DNA of 64,000 nt from Gammaproteobacteria bacterium (lineage in GTDB: Bacteria; Pseudomonadota; Gammaproteobacteria; Pseudomonadales; Porticoccaceae). How positions within the stretch are numbered: position 1 is the first letter of the stretch; each line of letters starts with the position of its first letter. Below the pieces are notes generated by a model, which saw only the letters and a program-made list of their open reading frames with translations, was not told the DNA's origin and did not search any database. The position numbers and the translations under genes were made by a program. The stretch lies in NCBI GenBank assembly GCA_018069465.1, contig JAGPUW010000002.1, forward strand, positions 62,001 to 126,000. Direction: 5' to 3'. Of this stretch, positions 5,521 to 12,105 are shown piece after piece.

Positions 5521-6417
5521 ATGAGTAAACAGGTAAAGTATTGGCAGGGCCATGATGACTGGCACGAGGCAGAACAGGCCTGGGATGAGCGGGCAGCACA
5601 ACTGGCTGGGGACACCCCTTTAAAAACCTTTAAAAAAAATCCCAATTTACCCGGTATTCGCACCAAAACGCGCAAAAACTTAAGCTGGAAAACCCTCTCC
5701 TATCTCCACCACCACGACTACAGCGGCAAGCTCGGTAGCTACTTTTGGCAGCGGCCCATCAAACACGGCCTGGGCCTGCTCAGTGCGCTGTTAAAAAAAC
5801 AAAGCTACCGCCGCGATGGTGATTTCTTCCTCTATGGTTTACGCAACCTTGCCGAGTTTGAAAAACAACTCGATGCCCCTGATACCGTGCTGGTGGTCGG
5901 CTTTTCCTACTGTCACAAACCTTTTGAATGCCCGGAGGGGCGCTTTACCGATGCCTGTAGTCACAACCCCGAACACCCGGTTTGTGGCCAGTGCTTCATT
6001 GGTAAATGCGTGCACAGCCTGCCCGAAACGCAAGTTGTACCCCTGTTTATCACCACCGTACATTACATCGGCGAAAAGATGATTGAGGCCCGACAAAACT
6101 GGCCCCAGCACAATGTGCTGTTCGTGATTACCGCCTGCGAACTGACCCTGGAAATGTTTGGCAAAATCGGCGTCGCCGTCGATTTGCAAGGCATCGGCGT
6201 GCGCCTCGATGGGCAAATCTGCAACACCATGAAAGCTTTTGAAGCCTCCGAAATTGGCATTAAACCGGGCATGGCGATTGTCACGGATAAAACGCAAGGG
6301 CGGATGATGGACTTGTTTCGCCAGTTTGGGCAGGGCGCGGCCGGGCGCTCGCCCAGTGGAGTGCCCAGCAGGGCCGGGCTGGCTGACAATATTATTGCCA
6401 GCGATGGTGGGCATTAG
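5521..6417 (+). CDS. Cysteine-rich DUF116-like protein
   Basis: A 298-residue soluble protein, probably cytoplasmic, of unknown function. The start is set at ATG 5521; a TTG at 5515 in frame is possible. The middle holds six closely spaced cysteines (SYCHKPFEC near 130-136, then DAC, PVCGQC and GKC). The C-terminal half has TACELTLEMF and LDGQICNTM. The run CGxC ... AC ... G-x-CNT resembles the layout of DUF116 proteins, which suggests a metal or Fe-S site. That assignment is by eye and moderate. It stands alone, with the GDT1-like gene upstream and the cassette array downstream. Confidence 0.55.
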   Translation: MSKQVKYWQGHDDWHEAEQAWDERAAQLAGDTPLKTFKKNPNLPGIRTKTRKNLSWKTLSYLHHHDYSGKLGSYFWQRPIKHGLGLLSALLKKQSYRRDGDFFLYGLRNLAEFEKQLDAPDTVLVVGFSYCHKPFECPEGRFTDACSHNPEHPVCGQCFIGKCVHSLPETQVVPLFITTVHYIGEKMIEARQNWPQHNVLFVITACELTLEMFGKIGVAVDLQGIGVRLDGQICNTMKAFEASEIGIKPGMAIVTDKTQGRMMDLFRQFGQGAAGRSPSGVPSRAGLADNIIASDGGH

Positions 6418-6541
6418 CTGGCTTGGTCAGCCTATAAGCGGTATCTGCCTGTATGTTCTTGTGTCTTGCTAGTGGGCATTGCTACGCGTTTTTGTTACCC
6501 CAGTTTTTTCGCCGGGGCAGTATCCATTGCTTGATGGGCGT

Positions 6542-6615
6542 GTTAACGGGAATTAAAGTCCTGCTATATAAAAGAATTAAAGGGGATTGAGTTTCCTGTT
6601 AACAACAAGTTATGC
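6542..6615 (+). other. Possible left boundary of the cassette array (degenerate attC or attI-like)
   Basis: GTTAACGGGAA (6542-6552) and TTTCCTGTTAAC (6591-6602) form an inverted repeat, followed five bases later by a GTTATGC box (6609-6615) where cassette 1 begins. The right half matches the L'-spacer-R' layout of attC. The left half lacks both the extrahelical base and a recognisable R'' box. It could be a decayed attC of a lost cassette or an attI-like site. Confidence 0.35.
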
Positions 6616-6630
6616 ATTTAGGAGAAGTTC

Positions 6631-7035
6631 ATGCCCATAACGGGAGAATGTTTTTGTGGTGTGGTGAGATATCAAGTTGCAGGAAAGCTTCGTGATGCCC
6701 GTTCGTGCCACTGTTCACGCTGTCGTAAAGCCTTTAGCTCTCAAGCGTCAGCCTATGCACTCGTTAATCCTGAAGAATTTAAATGGTTGGCAGGAAAAGA
6801 GCTTCTTACTTCATATGCAGGTCAACATGAGTTCGGCCTACAATTTTGCAGCAAATGTGGATCGACGCTATGCGGGATATTTAAAGGCTCAATTCATGGC
6901 GTTACTTTGGGGTGTGTTAACGGTGATCCAAAAATTGAATTAGGCAGGCACATTTATGTTGGTTCTAAAGCGAGCTGGGATGTTATCCCTGATGGTGTGC
7001 TGCAATACCAAGAGGGTGCCCCAGAACATGCATAA
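6631..7035 (+). CDS. GFA/CENP-V-fold zinc protein (cassette 1)
   Basis: A 134-residue protein of the glutathione-dependent formaldehyde-activating (GFA) fold. Zinc-ligand motifs are visible: GECFCG (residues 5-10), CHCSRC near 27-32 and FCSKCG near 73-78. Family members range from glutathione/formaldehyde adduct enzymes to proteins of unknown role, and the substrate cannot be read here. AGGAG precedes the ATG. The gene starts 21 bases after the cassette joint and its stop codon lies inside the R'' box of the following attC, as is common in cassettes. A second GFA-fold gene, not in a cassette, lies at 57346. Confidence 0.85.
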   Translation: MPITGECFCGVVRYQVAGKLRDARSCHCSRCRKAFSSQASAYALVNPEEFKWLAGKELLTSYAGQHEFGLQFCSKCGSTLCGIFKGSIHGVTLGCVNGDPKIELGRHIYVGSKASWDVIPDGVLQYQEGAPEHA

Positions 7036-7131
7036 CAATTGCTTGCACACGGACTCCCATAAGCGTCACGATTTTTGCTATTCGCAAAGAAACCGCACTA
7101 CTCATGGCAGCCGGTGAAGCAGGCGTTATAC
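7030..7131 (+). other. attC site 1
   Basis: The R'' box is GCATAAC (7030-7036) and the R' box GTTATAC (7125-7131). The arms pair as TTgCACaCGG with CCGGTGAA, leaving two unpaired bases (lower case) on the left arm, as in the classical aadA1 attC. Pairing continues inward, and the loop holds a TTTGC/GCAAA hairpin. Length is about 102 bases. Confidence 0.8.
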
Positions 7132-7147
7132 ATAAACAAGGATAGTT

Positions 7148-7459
7148 ATGATTATCGAAGCAAAAAAAATATCAAAGGCCTCACTTTTTAAGCTCTTACT
7201 AAAAGGTCTTGGTTGTGGTTTCTTTGTACTTTTTGTTGGGTGCGGTGTGGCGGCAATATTAGGCGCTGAAACAGTTAGCTGGAATGGTGAGCCTGTTAAG
7301 GGCTTGATGGGGGGTGTAACCGCTTTTTTGATGTGGCCATTTTTCAGCTTATTCTTAGCATGTTTTATTTGGTTGTTCAGTGTTTTTGGTTTATGGATTT
7401 ATTCATTCTTTGGCACTTTGAGTATCGAGTTCAAAGGTGTCGTAGAGAACGCAGAGTGA
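7148..7459 (+). CDS. Small two-segment membrane protein (cassette 2)
   Basis: A 103-residue protein of no recognised family. It has two hydrophobic stretches, about residues 14-38 (LLLKGLGCGFFVLFVGCG onward) and 57-90, rich in Phe, Trp and Leu, with short charged ends. It is preceded by AGGAT and starts 22 bases into its cassette. The base composition is clearly A+T-richer than the chromosomal genes around it, in keeping with transfer. An inner-membrane location is inferred and no function is proposed. Confidence 0.6.
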   Translation: MIIEAKKISKASLFKLLLKGLGCGFFVLFVGCGVAAILGAETVSWNGEPVKGLMGGVTAFLMWPFFSLFLACFIWLFSVFGLWIYSFFGTLSIEFKGVVENAE

Positions 7460-7463
7460 TTAG

Positions 7464-7553
7464 GTATAACAATGCGTTCAACTTCAGCCAGCAAGCTGGC
7501 TTGGAACTCCAAACTGCTGCGTAGTTTTCTGTCCCGTTAACGCGTCGTAAGTT
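7464..7553 (+). other. attC site 2 (partly degenerate)
   Basis: The R'' box GTATAAC (7464-7470) is the exact complement of the GTTATAC box opening this cassette. GTTcAAC (7476-7482) pairs with GTTAAC (7536-7541), with one extra base on the left arm. The R' position reads GTAAGTT (7547-7553), a poor match to GTTRRRY. A perfect AGCCAGC/GCTGGCT hairpin sits inside. Confidence 0.6.
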
Positions 7554-7596
7554 ACACAAGAACTCACACCTTATATGTGAACGTTGGAGAAGCTAA

Positions 7597-9111
7597 ATGA
7601 AAGCAAAGCAACTTTTTATAACAGGTAGTCTGGCTTTTTTTATGGCGGCGGGAATGACCTGGGCGGCCGAAGCGCCGAGGATGAAGATGGCAACGGAAAT
7701 CCCACCCGGGGTCGCAACCCCGGACAAGCTGGAGACCTCTCTCGGAACCCTGACCTCCGTCGATGGTGTGCCAGACGCGGAAACGACTCAGAAGGTTTAC
7801 GATAACCTCGATCTAGTTCGTGCCACGGAGGCGTTCCTAAACGGTCTTCCGATCGCTTCGATGTATGCGATGAAGAAGGGGCTTCTTGGGTTCGGTCCCG
7901 CCAACACCACGGCCGTTCTTTTCGAAGAGTTGATGGACTCCAGGGCGCTCTGGCTGACTCCGAACACCACCAATGTATACATGGCGAGCTGGCTGGAGCT
8001 CGGTGACGAGCCAATGGTGATTGAAACGCCCCCCGATGTCCTCGGCTTTATCGATAATGCCTGGTTCAAGTATGTGATCGATTTCGGCAGACTCGGTCCG
8101 GACAAGAGCAAGGGCGGCAAGTTCCTGATCCTGCCTCCCGGCTATGATGGCGATATACCGGAAGGCTATCACGTCGCGAAAACCAGCACCCACGGAAACT
8201 GGGTGGTCTGGCGCGGTTTCCAGGTGGACGGCTCGCCGAAACCAGCGGTTGATGCAGCGAGGAAAATATTTAAGATCTACCCGCTCTCTAAGAAGGACAA
8301 TCCGCCAGCGATGGCCTTCGTCAACGCATCCGGCAAGTTCCACAACACAATCCACCGCATGGACTTCGGATACTGGGAGGAGCTCGACGCGACCATTCAG
8401 GTCGAGCCTCTGGAAGGACTCGACGTGGAGACCCGCGGTCTGCTCGCCTCGATCGGCATCAAGAAGGGGCAGGCGTTCAAGCCCGACGCACGGATGAAGA
8501 AGATCCTCACTGACGCGGCAGCGATCGGGTCGGTGACCTCTCGAGCCTTAACGGCTCGACCGAGGGATCAGCGGCACTACCTCTATCCCGGAAAGCGGAT
8601 GTGGACCAATCCCTTCGTGGAGAAGCGTTACGATTTCCTACTGGATGGCGAGCGACTTCTGGATTCACGCGTCTACATGCATTTCTACGCCACCGGGATC
8701 ACCCCCGCCATGGCTTTGAAACTTATTGGTAAGGGATCGCAGTATGCCATCGCATACCTCGACAAGGACGGCAATGCTCTCGATGGCAGCAAGACCTATA
8801 AGATCAACGTGCCCAGGGACGTCCCGGTGAAAGACTTCTGGTCCTTTACCCCCTACGACAATCAGACCCGCGGCATGTTGCAGACCGACCAGCGGTTTCC
8901 GGGCATTGACAACAACAAGGAGGGCTTGAAGCAGAGTGCGGATGGCTCCTACGACATCTACTTCGGACCGAAGGCTCCAGAAGGTCAGGAGAACAACTGG
9001 ATTCAAACCGTCCCGGGCAAGGGGTGGAACACCATCCTCCGCCTTTACGGGCCGCTCGAGCCATGGTTCGACAGGAGCTGGATGCCGGGTGATCCGGTGC
9101 TGGTGAAGTAG
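7597..9111 (+). CDS. DUF1254/DUF1214 family secreted protein (cassette 3)
   Basis: A 504-residue protein with an N-terminal signal peptide (residues 1-24, cut after TWAA). It has a DUF1254 domain at about 50-200 (ATEAFLNGLP, NTTNVYMASW) and a DUF1214 domain at about 340-495 (KINVPRDVPVKDFWSFTPYD near the start, NWIQTVPGKGW near the end). This two-domain family is widespread and of unknown biochemical role; a periplasmic location is inferred. GGAG precedes the ATG. It is large for a gene cassette, and its G+C-rich codon use differs from the A+T-rich genes before it. It is directly followed by a textbook attC. Confidence 0.85.
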   Translation: MKAKQLFITGSLAFFMAAGMTWAAEAPRMKMATEIPPGVATPDKLETSLGTLTSVDGVPDAETTQKVYDNLDLVRATEAFLNGLPIASMYAMKKGLLGFGPANTTAVLFEELMDSRALWLTPNTTNVYMASWLELGDEPMVIETPPDVLGFIDNAWFKYVIDFGRLGPDKSKGGKFLILPPGYDGDIPEGYHVAKTSTHGNWVVWRGFQVDGSPKPAVDAARKIFKIYPLSKKDNPPAMAFVNASGKFHNTIHRMDFGYWEELDATIQVEPLEGLDVETRGLLASIGIKKGQAFKPDARMKKILTDAAAIGSVTSRALTARPRDQRHYLYPGKRMWTNPFVEKRYDFLLDGERLLDSRVYMHFYATGITPAMALKLIGKGSQYAIAYLDKDGNALDGSKTYKINVPRDVPVKDFWSFTPYDNQTRGMLQTDQRFPGIDNNKEGLKQSADGSYDIYFGPKAPEGQENNWIQTVPGKGWNTILRLYGPLEPWFDRSWMPGDPVLVK

Positions 9112-9125
9112 TTGCGATGCACATC

Positions 9126-9186
9126 AGCTAACAAACGGTTGCAGCAGACGGCGTTAACACGCCGCTGCTGAACCATGGCGTTAAAA
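9126..9186 (+). other. attC site 3 (textbook 60-base element)
   Basis: The R'' box is AGCTAAC (9126-9132) and the R' box GTTAAAA (9180-9186). The left arm GTTgCAGCAGaCGGCG pairs with CGCCGCTGCTGAAC, leaving two single extrahelical bases at exactly the spacing seen in aadA1 attC. Spacers between boxes are 5 and 6 bases. This is the best single piece of evidence for the cassette array. Confidence 0.88.
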
Positions 9187-9199
9187 GGCCATCCAATTA

Positions 9200-9487
9200 A
9201 TGCGCGAAGCCGGACAATATGTAGAGTGTTGTGAACATGGAAAACAGCAAGCGACTTATGTTTGTCAGCACACTGTACAAAGCTTTGGTGATAGTCCTCC
9301 AAGAGGCTTCTTATCTGCAGAGCCTGAGTCTGGCGATGATCGACCCGATTCTTGGTGTAGTGCTTGCGAAGAAATGCTTAATAAAATTGCTGGGGAATGG
9401 AATGATTAATCTGAAGTATTTGCGGGTGTAAAATCAATATGCGATGCCTGCTGCGATCGCACCAAACAACTTAAATGTTGGCAGTAA
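9200..9487 (+). pseudogene. Small cysteine-rich protein with an in-frame stop (cassette 4)
   Basis: The first 69 codons run from ATG 9200 to a TAA at 9407-9409. The visible protein has CCEHG, ATYVCQH, RPDSWCSACEE and ends GEWND. After the stop the same frame continues for 25 codons as SEVFAGVKSICDACCDRT, with the C-x2-C pair expected at the end of this putative zinc-binding family, then TAA at 9485. I remember similar short proteins with this C-terminal half but cannot name the family. The simplest reading is a nonsense mutation; a functional truncated form is possible. The gene begins 20 bases after the cassette joint. Confidence 0.6.
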
Positions 9488-9520
9488 AAAGAAGTGGAGT
9501 AGCAATTTCCAAAACGTCAC

Positions 9521-9580
9521 TTTTGACAATAACTCTAGCCCCACCTAGTTTACTTAGGCTGGATAATCAAGCTGTTTGTA
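9521..9580 (+). other. attC site 4 (decayed)
   Basis: TTTTGAC (9521-9527) differs by one base from TTTTAAC, the complement of the GTTAAAA box that opens this cassette. GTTTGTA (9574-9580) lies 60 bases away at the R' position. Between them CCTA/TAGG and CCA/TGG form an imperfect stem. The length and box positions fit attC but pairing is weak. Confidence 0.45.
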
Positions 9581-9642
9581 TGCCTGTTTAATATAGGATA
9601 TATTCGACCGGCAAGATAATAATTCACTATTGAGGGAATATT

Positions 9643-10128
9643 ATGAAGAATAAAATCTTAGCTGGACTGGCTGTCGCCTGTTTATCGACTGGCGCTTTAG
9701 CGGATCCCGACACACATGGTTGTGGTTGGGGTAGTTTGCTTTTTGAAGGCACGAGTGGCCTTGCACCCTATGTGTTAGCCTCTACCACGAATGGCGTGCT
9801 GATGAATGCCCCGCTAGGCATGACGTCAAACACCAATGGTTGCCAAACCCACCACCCAATCAATTACGGTGGTAAGTCCTGGTTTGCTGCCGCTGAATTT
9901 GCGGATGATATTGTAGAAGATATCGCGAAGGGCGAGGGTGAAGCTCTCGATGCATTGGCGACAATGATCGGTATTGAGCAACAGGATCGTGCTTATTTTG
10001 CACAGTTAACCCATCAGAATTTCGCTGTGATTGCCCCTACTTCTGAAGTGACTGGGGAGCAGGTAATGCAAGCCATCGATAAGTTGCTGACTGCCGACAA
10101 CAGACTGGCTAAATACGTCGCATCCTAA
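9643..10128 (+). CDS. DUF3015 family exported protein
   Basis: A 161-residue protein with a signal peptide (MKNKILAGLAVACLSTGALA). The mature part shows the family pattern HGCGWGSLLFEG, then AxTTNG and GMTSNTNGC. DUF3015 proteins are small periplasmic proteins of unknown function, often found next to a DUF4105 gene as here. GAGG precedes the ATG. It lies 69 bases after the last attC-like site and has no attC behind it, so I take it as chromosomal rather than a cassette. Confidence 0.85.
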   Translation: MKNKILAGLAVACLSTGALADPDTHGCGWGSLLFEGTSGLAPYVLASTTNGVLMNAPLGMTSNTNGCQTHHPINYGGKSWFAAAEFADDIVEDIAKGEGEALDALATMIGIEQQDRAYFAQLTHQNFAVIAPTSEVTGEQVMQAIDKLLTADNRLAKYVAS

Positions 10129-10200
10129 TTATTAATTAAACCCTGCCCTAAATGCCGGTGCTAAACGGGTCTTTGGGGCACACTTCGTGGGCTGTATTTT

Positions 10201-12105
10201 TTGAGGCAATATAACGACGGGCACCGCGCAAAAAATTTAAAAATCCTTACATTTCTCAGCTCGATTTTCCTGGCAATACCCTCCTTTGCTCAGACCTATG
10301 TAGAGCAAGTTCAGCAGAAAAGTATCCAGCGGCAACTTTATACCAGCCCCTACTGGCTCGCTCTTGGGCACTATGTTGGCGTGGGTGATGATAATCTCGC
10401 TTTTGAAAGTTACGCCGATGATCAAAGGTTTTTCCTCAGTGATAATGGCAAATATTCTCCAAAAGACGAGCTGCAAGCAACAATTGAATCCATTTTTGAT
10501 GAAAGTAACACTGGGGACAGTCACGCTCAATGTCGCTTTGTCGCGCGCTTAAAATGGCTGTCAGATGAGTTGGACATAGAGCCGAATAAGCTACCGAAAG
10601 TTAACTGTGATCAATACCTGCTTTGGCGCGATGCGATAAATGCGGAATCAGTGACCTTGATTTTCGCTTCACATTTTGTCAACAGCCCCTCCTCCATGTA
10701 CGGTCACACCTTGCTGCGTGTCGACCCACCAAAGGAGGTTAACTCTTCGCAGTGGCTTTCTTACGCCGTTAACTTTGGCGCGAATGTTAACGATGGCGCC
10801 AATTTTTTGTCCTATGCCTGGAAGGGCCTGGTCGGCGGTTATCCCGGCACCTTTTCAATGGCACCGTACTATAAAAAAATAAAGCAATATTCGAGTATAG
10901 AAAACCGTGGGCTGTGGGAGTATCGGCTCGATCTAAGTGTTGATGAGGTCAAGCAACTGGTCGCCCACCTCTGGGAGCTAAACGGCATTACCTTCGACTA
11001 TTTTTTTGCGGATGAAAATTGCAGTTTTCGCTTGCTCGAATTACTCGAAATAGCCCGGCCCAATATCGATTTACTATCCGCCTTTGAGTACAAGGCTATT
11101 CCTACAGACACGGTCAGAGTGGTTCGCGAGCAGCAGATGATTACTGACGTTGACTACCGCGCTTCTCAACTTGAAAAGATAAAATATATTGCCGCTAGTC
11201 TCAGCGACGAAAACAAAAGTCTGGCACATCAGCTGGCTTTCAACACACAACTGTTGGAGGGTGAGCACTTCCAGAGCGCAAGCCCGGATCAGCAGCGCAA
11301 TATTCTCTATGTTGCCTACAATTATTTACGTTTTCAACAGCGTAAAGCTTACCGGGATAAAGATATGGCGCAGCGAAGCCATCGTCTTCTGTTGGCGATT
11401 AACGCGCTTGGTAATGCTGACCTGTCGACAATCCCTCGACCTTTCAATCCTATTGGCGGGCATAAAACCACTAGTTTTACTGTGGCTGCGGGGGGCGAAG
11501 GGGGCGATGAATTTATCGAAGGGCAATGGCGTATGAGCTACCATGACCTGGTCGATCCATCTCCGGGTTATCCGCCAGGCTTAGGTATTGAAATGCTGGG
11601 CGTCACTGCCCGGCTGTGGCGGGGTGGGGACACTACACTCGAACGACTGGATATTATTAGCATTAACTCGTTTGCCGGCAGAGATGAATTTTTTAAACCC
11701 ACCTCCTGGCGTATCAATGGGGGCATGGAGCGAATATATAATGCAGGGGGCGATCAGTTAGTCAGCCATGTGAGCGGCGGTCGCGGCCTTAGTTATGAGT
11801 TTGGCAGCAACCTGCTGGCATACACTCTGCTCACCGGGCGCTACGAATACAACGAAATGCTCGCTCATAATCACCAGTTGGGCGCCGGACTTGCCCTGGG
11901 CTTTATTGCATCGATGGACAAGCTGAATACTTCACTAGAGTTGTCATCCCTTAAGCTCGGCAACGGAGCCGAGCGCTATTCTTTCGCCGTCGACCTGAGC
12001 TATGCGCTGGGTAGTAACGGGGCCTTGCGCTTGTCACTAGAGAGCGCCAAGGAAGAACACTACGAGGAAAACAATATAAAATTCGGCTATCGGTATTTTT
12101 ATTGA
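10201..12105 (+). CDS. DUF4105 family envelope protein
   Basis: A 634-residue protein with a signal peptide ending near SFAQ (residue ~31). The start is a TTG at 10201; no ATG lies nearby in frame. The DUF4105 signature is visible as SHFVNSPSSMYGHTLLRVDP near residues 157-176, and FADENCSFRLLELL near 270. The C-terminal ~230 residues have alternating short hydrophobic stretches and end in an aromatic residue (YRYFY), which suggests a beta-barrel in the outer membrane. Function is unknown. It probably forms a pair with the DUF3015 gene 72 bases upstream. Confidence 0.82.
   Translation: MRQYNDGHRAKNLKILTFLSSIFLAIPSFAQTYVEQVQQKSIQRQLYTSPYWLALGHYVGVGDDNLAFESYADDQRFFLSDNGKYSPKDELQATIESIFDESNTGDSHAQCRFVARLKWLSDELDIEPNKLPKVNCDQYLLWRDAINAESVTLIFASHFVNSPSSMYGHTLLRVDPPKEVNSSQWLSYAVNFGANVNDGANFLSYAWKGLVGGYPGTFSMAPYYKKIKQYSSIENRGLWEYRLDLSVDEVKQLVAHLWELNGITFDYFFADENCSFRLLELLEIARPNIDLLSAFEYKAIPTDTVRVVREQQMITDVDYRASQLEKIKYIAASLSDENKSLAHQLAFNTQLLEGEHFQSASPDQQRNILYVAYNYLRFQQRKAYRDKDMAQRSHRLLLAINALGNADLSTIPRPFNPIGGHKTTSFTVAAGGEGGDEFIEGQWRMSYHDLVDPSPGYPPGLGIEMLGVTARLWRGGDTTLERLDIISINSFAGRDEFFKPTSWRINGGMERIYNAGGDQLVSHVSGGRGLSYEFGSNLLAYTLLTGRYEYNEMLAHNHQLGAGLALGFIASMDKLNTSLELSSLKLGNGAERYSFAVDLSYALGSNGALRLSLESAKEEHYEENNIKFGYRYFY

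Follow-up and report, generated by a model that had tools for sequence, protein, structure and literature searches.

The stretch analysed here, which we call the window, covers 64,000 nucleotides of the genome of a gammaproteobacterium of the family Porticoccaceae (GenBank contig JAGPUW010000002.1, positions 62,001 to 126,000; in our numbering G000:C1:62001-126000). The host genome (G000) is available as a draft of 3.6 Mb (49 contigs, completeness 97.6%). Between positions 6610 and 9574 the window carries an array of gene cassettes, which a preliminary description made from the letters of the window had taken for four integron cassettes with four attC sites, and which very probably represents an attI-anchored integron array devoid of the integrase gene intI. 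The features of the locus are the following.

5521-6417: left neighbour gene, 298 aa, no match in Pfam or NCBIfam
6543-6614, plus strand: attI-like site, by similarity to the attI beside intI on contig C47 of the relative G008; inferred crossover 6609|6610
6610-9574, plus strand: gene-cassette array, recognised by attC sites, homologues in cassette context and an attI-like left edge
6610-7125, plus strand: cassette 1 (GFA-family gene), opening and R'' in agreement at 7/7 positions; same opening in a cassette of G137 (L181)
6631-7035, plus strand: GFA-family protein, 134 aa (Pfam PF04828, E 5.2e-19)
7030-7131, plus strand: attC site 1; covariance model 29.0 bits, E 1.6e-4; scan 45.6; fold z -3.89
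7126-7547, plus strand: cassette 2 (small membrane protein), opening and R'' 7/7
7148-7459, plus strand: 103-aa small protein that looks by eye like a membrane protein; no match in Pfam or NCBIfam
7464-7553, plus strand: attC site 2, damaged; scan 17.5, as high in 1/100 shuffled strands
7548-9180, plus strand: cassette 3 (DUF1254/DUF1214 gene), bounded by sites 2 and 3
7597-9111, plus strand: DUF1254/DUF1214 protein, 504 aa (Pfam PF06863, PF06742)
9126-9186, plus strand: attC site 3; covariance model 22.5 bits, E 0.0059 over the 64-kb window; fold z -5.38
9181-9574, plus strand: putative cassette 4, decayed, recognised by homology; right end uncertain, adopted from the preliminary description
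9200-9409, plus strand: 69-aa cysteine-rich protein, truncated relative to G084 by an early stop

The attC sites were searched for with a covariance model (CM), which covers both ends of a site. Training sites were taken from stretches adjoining full integrase genes of relatives and from one array of the same genus (L044); 3 of 43 extracted sites were discarded beforehand, two being seemingly misplaced and one too short for the scheme, and the model was built on the remaining 40 with the host genome excluded. The intended attC fold was paired in 83.4% of pair cells vs 60.9% in shuffles (0/500 as high). Over the 64-kb window the model matched site 1 and site 3, ~2 kb apart, plus one weak place elsewhere (12.5 bits, E 1.5), so the array withstood the test, set out beforehand, that attC models might give no hits. 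Moreover, an ungapped scoring based on the same training set, for which the leave-one-out minimum was -14.7 and some true sites therefore escape, gave sites 1, 3 and 2 as the three best places of the plus strand, the next best in the window being 12.8 on the minus strand; site 3 scored 9.8 ungapped and 30.2 when one extra spacer base was allowed. When 100 dinucleotide-shuffled 64-kb strands were scanned, one reached 17.5 (maximum 21.7) and none 30.2; sites 1 and 3 thus outscore all shuffled strands and every other place in the window. The bottom strand of site 3 folds into R and L arms with two single extrahelical bases (-18.6 kcal/mol, 0/200 shuffles as good), exactly at 9126-9186 and with the geometry first proposed for it, and that of site 1 was likewise matched by 0/200 shuffles. 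Folding of each bottom strand, suggested at the outset, thus distinguishes sites 1 and 3 from sites 2 and 4, which fold at chance.

Site 2 has a sound left half, with an 8-bp L helix and one extrahelical base. No CM match was obtained for it in the window search, and its fold is unremarkable (z -0.86, 43/200 shuffles as good). Alternative right ends at 7542 and 7557 were rejected, scoring -14.0 and -53.1 vs 17.5 for 7553. For the site 4 candidate, 143 and 163 of 200 shuffles folded as well; the word TTTTGAC at 9521-9527, with AA after it, is R''-like and matches the opening of cassette 4 (GTTAAAA) at 6/7 positions. Of the four attC sites originally described, then, two are sound, one is damaged and the fourth is unrecognisable. 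The complementarity of R'' to the box that opens the same cassette, claimed for sites 1 and 2, was found in full: GTTATGC at 6609-6615 against GCATAAC at 7030-7036 for cassette 1, and GTTATAC at 7125-7131 against GTATAAC at 7464-7470 for cassette 2, 7/7 in both. Among relatives 25/48 consecutive finder hits agreed at 7/7, a count that includes stray hits outside arrays, and in the stretches L081, L084, L085 and L088 the figure was 14/17.

Of the cargo, the GFA and DUF1254/DUF1214 proteins are recognised by their Pfam domains and the membrane protein by eye; the fourth protein is cysteine-rich. The GFA gene has matches at E 1e-15 in 171/390 genomes of the order (own genome counted, as in the two counts that follow), the DUF1254/DUF1214 gene occurs in 33/390 at E 1e-20 and the membrane gene in 3/390. 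A GFA homologue (72%) lies between two attC sites in L181 of G137 and shares with cassette 1 the opening GTTATGCAT..AGGAG; its attC resembles site 1 (score 57 vs 4.6 +/- 8.0, 0/300 shuffles as good). Because of this common opening and similar attC, the two look like the same cassette lineage. A second GFA homologue in attC context was found in L190 (69%), the attC of which is not similar to site 1 (139/300 shuffles as good). A homologue of the membrane gene (41%) sits between two attC sites in G437 (L174); one of the two loci of this gene has an attC within 250 nt, and L175 has a match further off. The DUF1254/DUF1214 homologue of G280 (L148, 47%) is followed, 9 nt past its stop, by a clear attC with the same R'' as site 3 (AGCTAAC), while the attC score at L145 is marginal (14.8, no proper R''). 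The cysteine-rich gene is present in 2/112 genomes of the family, that of the window and G084, where it sits between two attC sites (L140 909-986 and 1313-1387); alignment and translation show that, relative to G084, the window copy stops early and carries a frameshift beyond this stop. It is this homology that makes it the putative gene of a fourth cassette.

A quite different reading would take the palindromic joints for hairpins that arose by chance or are terminator-like, set between ordinary genes of the chromosome. It would fit the folds of sites 2 and 4, which are at chance, and the loci of homologues elsewhere: an attC adjoins the GFA gene in 2/29 other loci and none lies within 250 nt in 27/29, and the same holds for 27/29 DUF1254 loci. 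The preliminary description had named relatives with the same genes and no palindromic joints as an outcome that would speak against an array; such loci are thus common for two of the genes, and for every one of the four an attC adjoins one homologue or more. As this reading is refuted for sites 1 and 3, which lie above the 100 shuffled strands and above the rest of the window, and as attC context is seen for homologues of each of the four genes, we give it next to no credence.

The left edge of the array was studied by comparing the 223 bases that follow the left neighbour gene (6418-6640) with all loci fetched by then. Positions 6543-6614 aligned with the attI region that adjoins the intact intI of G008:C47 (L053 267-198) with 76% identity over 72 nt (E 6e-8), the match ending at ..AACAAG|TTATG, that is, at the start of cassette 1; the local alignment scored 77 vs a maximum of 46 in shuffles (0/500). 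A second match was with contig C25 of the own genome (L012 454-504, 76% over 51 nt), where it adjoins a decayed intI fragment. Judged by this similarity, the array starts at an attI-like site and, because its left edge aligns with attI, it would be an integron that lacks its integrase. The locus had been described as lying between chromosomal genes; its left edge is no bare chromosome but carries the attI-like stretch, which that description had overlooked. In the attI regions of the genus (L011 2400-2700, L044 9820-10130, L216 1496-1562) we also observed inverted repeats directly upstream of the crossover, including repeated ACGTC..GACGT palindromes.

The integrase was searched for over the whole host genome with TIGR02249 (cut-off 265). 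Eight matches were obtained, only that on contig C18 being above the cut-off (441.8 bits), and none lay on C1, C28 or C3. The claim that no integrase is in view is therefore right for the window and contig C1 and wrong for the genome. Matches below the cut-off were also seen on C14, C2 and C12; these are probably other tyrosine recombinases, because all 14 control genomes give such matches. The C18 integrase is intact and shares 90% identity with its counterpart in G093 and 47.8% with the G008 type. An attI region is also present on C18, and at least one attC (25.1 bits) precedes the contig end. The search of the rest of the genome for intI and further arrays, recommended at the outset, was thus productive, and besides C18 it gave these features:

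C25 (L012 345-504, G000:C25; contig of 3.1 kb): decayed integrase end with stops, directly beside an attI-like stretch
C28 (L107 8497-9736, G000:C28:12496-13735): attI-anchored array without intI, two attC sites of 36.6 and 29.7 bits
C3 (L138 3846-4046 and 1088-1191, G000:C3): attI-like array without intI, an attI copy plus an attC

The C25 fragment falls below the TIGR02249 cut-off and is called intI by its likeness to the G008 integrase, the best among 22 integrases (75% over 36 aa, 58.3 bits; next 53.7); the contig also bears what we take to be a HipA-like gene. At its left edge the C28 array aligns with the attI regions of two relatives, G088 (85% over 67 nt) and G091 (85% over 60 nt). Its two cassettes both carry, by eye, acetyltransferase-like genes and follow the opening rule at 7/7, and the array lies downstream of a presumably selO-like gene and is followed, again by eye, by an IS91-type transposase lookalike. 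Over 201 nt the C3 stretch shares 89.6% identity with the attI region on the genome's own C18, and it adjoins what we assume to be a CoA-transferase-like gene; the C3 attC (30.9 bits) stands ~2.6 kb from the attI copy with several genes between, its R'' matching the attI-side opening at 7/7. Further attC sites were found on C16 and C11. As for the reach of these searches, the CM search across the genome, in which 150 of the 784 candidates from a first look were scored, recovered neither site 1 nor the C18 attC, and a search with filters off failed to recover the 102-nt site 1 and is uninformative on long sites. A pattern search gave 19 and 10 matches vs 19 and 21 for the reversed control; since the control is as frequent, a pattern match alone is no evidence, and the C28, C16 and C3 sites rest on their CM scores. 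Taken by similarity, at least three arrays of this genome (C1, C28 and C3) start at an attI-like site with no integrase.

The GTT edges of the array and the intact intI of the genome had prompted us to consider another origin, in which no attI took part and an integrase put the cassettes into an attG, a non-classical site on the chromosome. Loot et al. (2024) are said to have dealt with attG insertion. Insertion of this type is described in the available sections of PMC12901181, PMC11023631 and PMC12444791. This candidate was dropped once the left flank aligned with attI: the alignment runs ~66 nt before the crossover, beyond a GTT core, whereas an attG junction is one with neither attI nor attC sequence, and the C28 and C3 arrays likewise begin at attI-like sequence. 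Despite the intact integrase, attG insertion here is very unlikely.

The place itself differs among relatives. From the left neighbour gene to a gene that we take to be LLM-like there are 6.4 kb here vs 3.4 kb in G093, with different genes between, and the array sits in a variable interval. In G091:C29, of the same genus (L044 9770-10945), the left neighbour gene is followed by two genes that are CoA-transferase-like by eye, a fragment, and an attI with cassettes. This attI is of the C18 type, and its similarity to the C18 region (75% over 80 nt) ends ~13 nt from the intI start. As G091 shows attI and cassettes with a near-absent intI, the integrase gene can go while the rest stays. An empty site with the same flanks was not found among the relatives' loci examined, and the relative at L218 gave neither an attC nor a match to the attI queries at this place. 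We also considered whether an integron had ancestrally stood next to the left neighbour gene, a candidate that was not retained: among the 8 relatives' loci scanned (L044-L051) a clear attC was limited to L044 of G091 (59.1), with 14.0 (again L044) and 9.8 (L046) as the remaining scores, and of 13 loci scanned further one was seen in L219 alone, which lies on the L044 contig, while the others did not exceed 12.3 (L228). L046 (G093) may hold a badly decayed attC, seen by eye and not found by the scan.

Two side observations concern integrons in these relatives. Remnants of two attI types lie near one and the same gene, the left neighbour, in two species. Furthermore, L094 (G094:C1:62000-81900), from a one-contig genome of the family, is an intact integron with 31 attC model matches between 807 and 15493, counted at E up to 1 and including some used in training, and would make a good reference array for the family.

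Several results weigh against an attI-anchored integron array at this locus. The attI support comes from one intact relative and the C25 remnant. No remnant of intI was seen left of 6543 in a tblastn search with 22 IntI proteins (best E 0.086), and a decayed intI start suspected by eye at 6418-6542 was rejected, its leader alignment being equalled by 296/500 shuffles. The short intI start legible by eye in G091 was not recovered by tblastn, no full integron was found at exactly the same place among relatives, and the host genome is a draft of 49 contigs. Within the array, the right core of site 2 reads GTA instead of GTT, which explains why the opening of cassette 3 matches its own R'' at site 3 at 5/7 positions only; the best scan score for a fourth attC within 9187-10300 was 1.0. 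Because the opening rule fails for cassette 3 and site 4 is unrecognisable, the right half of the array could be more rearranged than described here.

On the attI-anchored reading the history of the array would be the following. Cassettes would have been inserted at attI (6609|6610) by an integrase of the type now found in G008:C47, which would explain their head-to-tail order and the agreement of their R boxes. The intI gene, which one would expect on the minus strand to the left of 6543, would then have been lost, most likely by deletion where it stood; within the attI-anchored reading we favour such deletion in place as the more likely course. Later decay would have damaged the core of site 2, made the attC of cassette 4 unrecognisable and broken its gene. 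A variant in which attI and cassettes arrived as one segment, intI never having stood here, is possible and we regard it as somewhat unlikely. It agrees with the occurrence of attI-anchored arrays without intI at three places of the genome (C1, C28 and C3), with two attI types that each occur twice, once with intI or a fragment of it and once without (C18/C3 and C25/C1), and with the lack of an intI remnant at 6418-6542; neither a mechanism nor boundary repeats were identified for it, and the short intI start that G091 seems by eye to retain beside its attI favours deletion in place.

On the attI-anchored reading with loss of intI, the locus is a partly decayed chromosomal integron. Its right operational label is that of a cluster of attC sites lacking an integron-integrase (CALIN), with at least two clustered attC sites and no TIGR02249 match on C1; of the parts of a complete integron, attI is present at the array start by sequence similarity and an intI adjacent to it is missing. 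A sedentary array or remnant had been thought likely, and this is supported. Sites 1 and 3 still fold like attC and might be movable in trans; through them the C18 integrase might yet excise cassette 1, or a single unit made up of cassettes 2 and 3. A more far-reaching idea, a dispersed integron in which the one C18 integrase serves in trans several attI sites of at least three sequence types, every site having cassettes of its own and most of them lacking an own integrase, strikes us as unlikely; if it were true, the missing intI genes would reflect a shared economy and not plain decay.

In the left flank the 298-aa left neighbour gene is accompanied by a GDT1-like gene and, further out, by what we take to be nuoF/nuoE-like genes, the nuoE-like protein matching PF01257. 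The left neighbour belongs to a conserved family without assigned domain that is oddly spread, many relatives (~45-60% identity) among the 80 loci compared being in records with chlamydial titles. The right flank holds a DUF3015 gene followed by an Lnb-like gene (Lnb_N/DUF7840), both within 9643-12105, and a SLATT-like gene that at 27 bits lies below the model cut-off of 55. A further DUF3015 gene, with 49% identity to the window copy, lies on C2 of the same genome, and for this reason the DUF3015 and Lnb_N/DUF7840 pair may be part of the variable interval. A scan for promoters and terminators gave no more than in shuffles.

Arrays of this kind are already known, and the locus is a fairly ordinary relic. 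It is alike to a CALIN in the sense of IntegronFinder, that is, at least two clustered attC sites and no intI nearby. In the sections available, PMC9024848 proposes that CALINs are degraded integrons and reports a large survey in which they are about as common as complete integrons (2961 vs 2760). A degraded integron and a stray insertion are hard to tell apart for a CALIN because attI sites are less conserved (PMC3607928, from the part available); here, in contrast, an attI-like site is kept, which is direct support for a degraded-integron origin. According to the accessible portion of PMC12444791, Xanthomonas integrons similarly include CALIN loci apart from intI, which is often inactivated, and their CALINs are said to be mobilisable in trans; ours belong to another family and show several attI types within one genome. 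The remnant of Treponema phagedenis, as far as the same partial text of PMC3607928 goes, also kept attC sites and cassettes and lost intI, a loss argued there from synteny with intact integrons and here from attI similarity. With respect to Gfa-type integron cassettes (PMC7370490) nothing is notably different, and DUF1254/DUF1214 was not found in that text. No paper on Porticoccaceae integrons was found in a limited literature search.

The gain would therefore be a modest one, namely attI evidence that may link the integrase-less arrays of one genome to former integrons. Comparing attI with relatives is a simple way to test where CALINs elsewhere came from, and the locus is a case for trying trans mobilisation by one surviving integrase.

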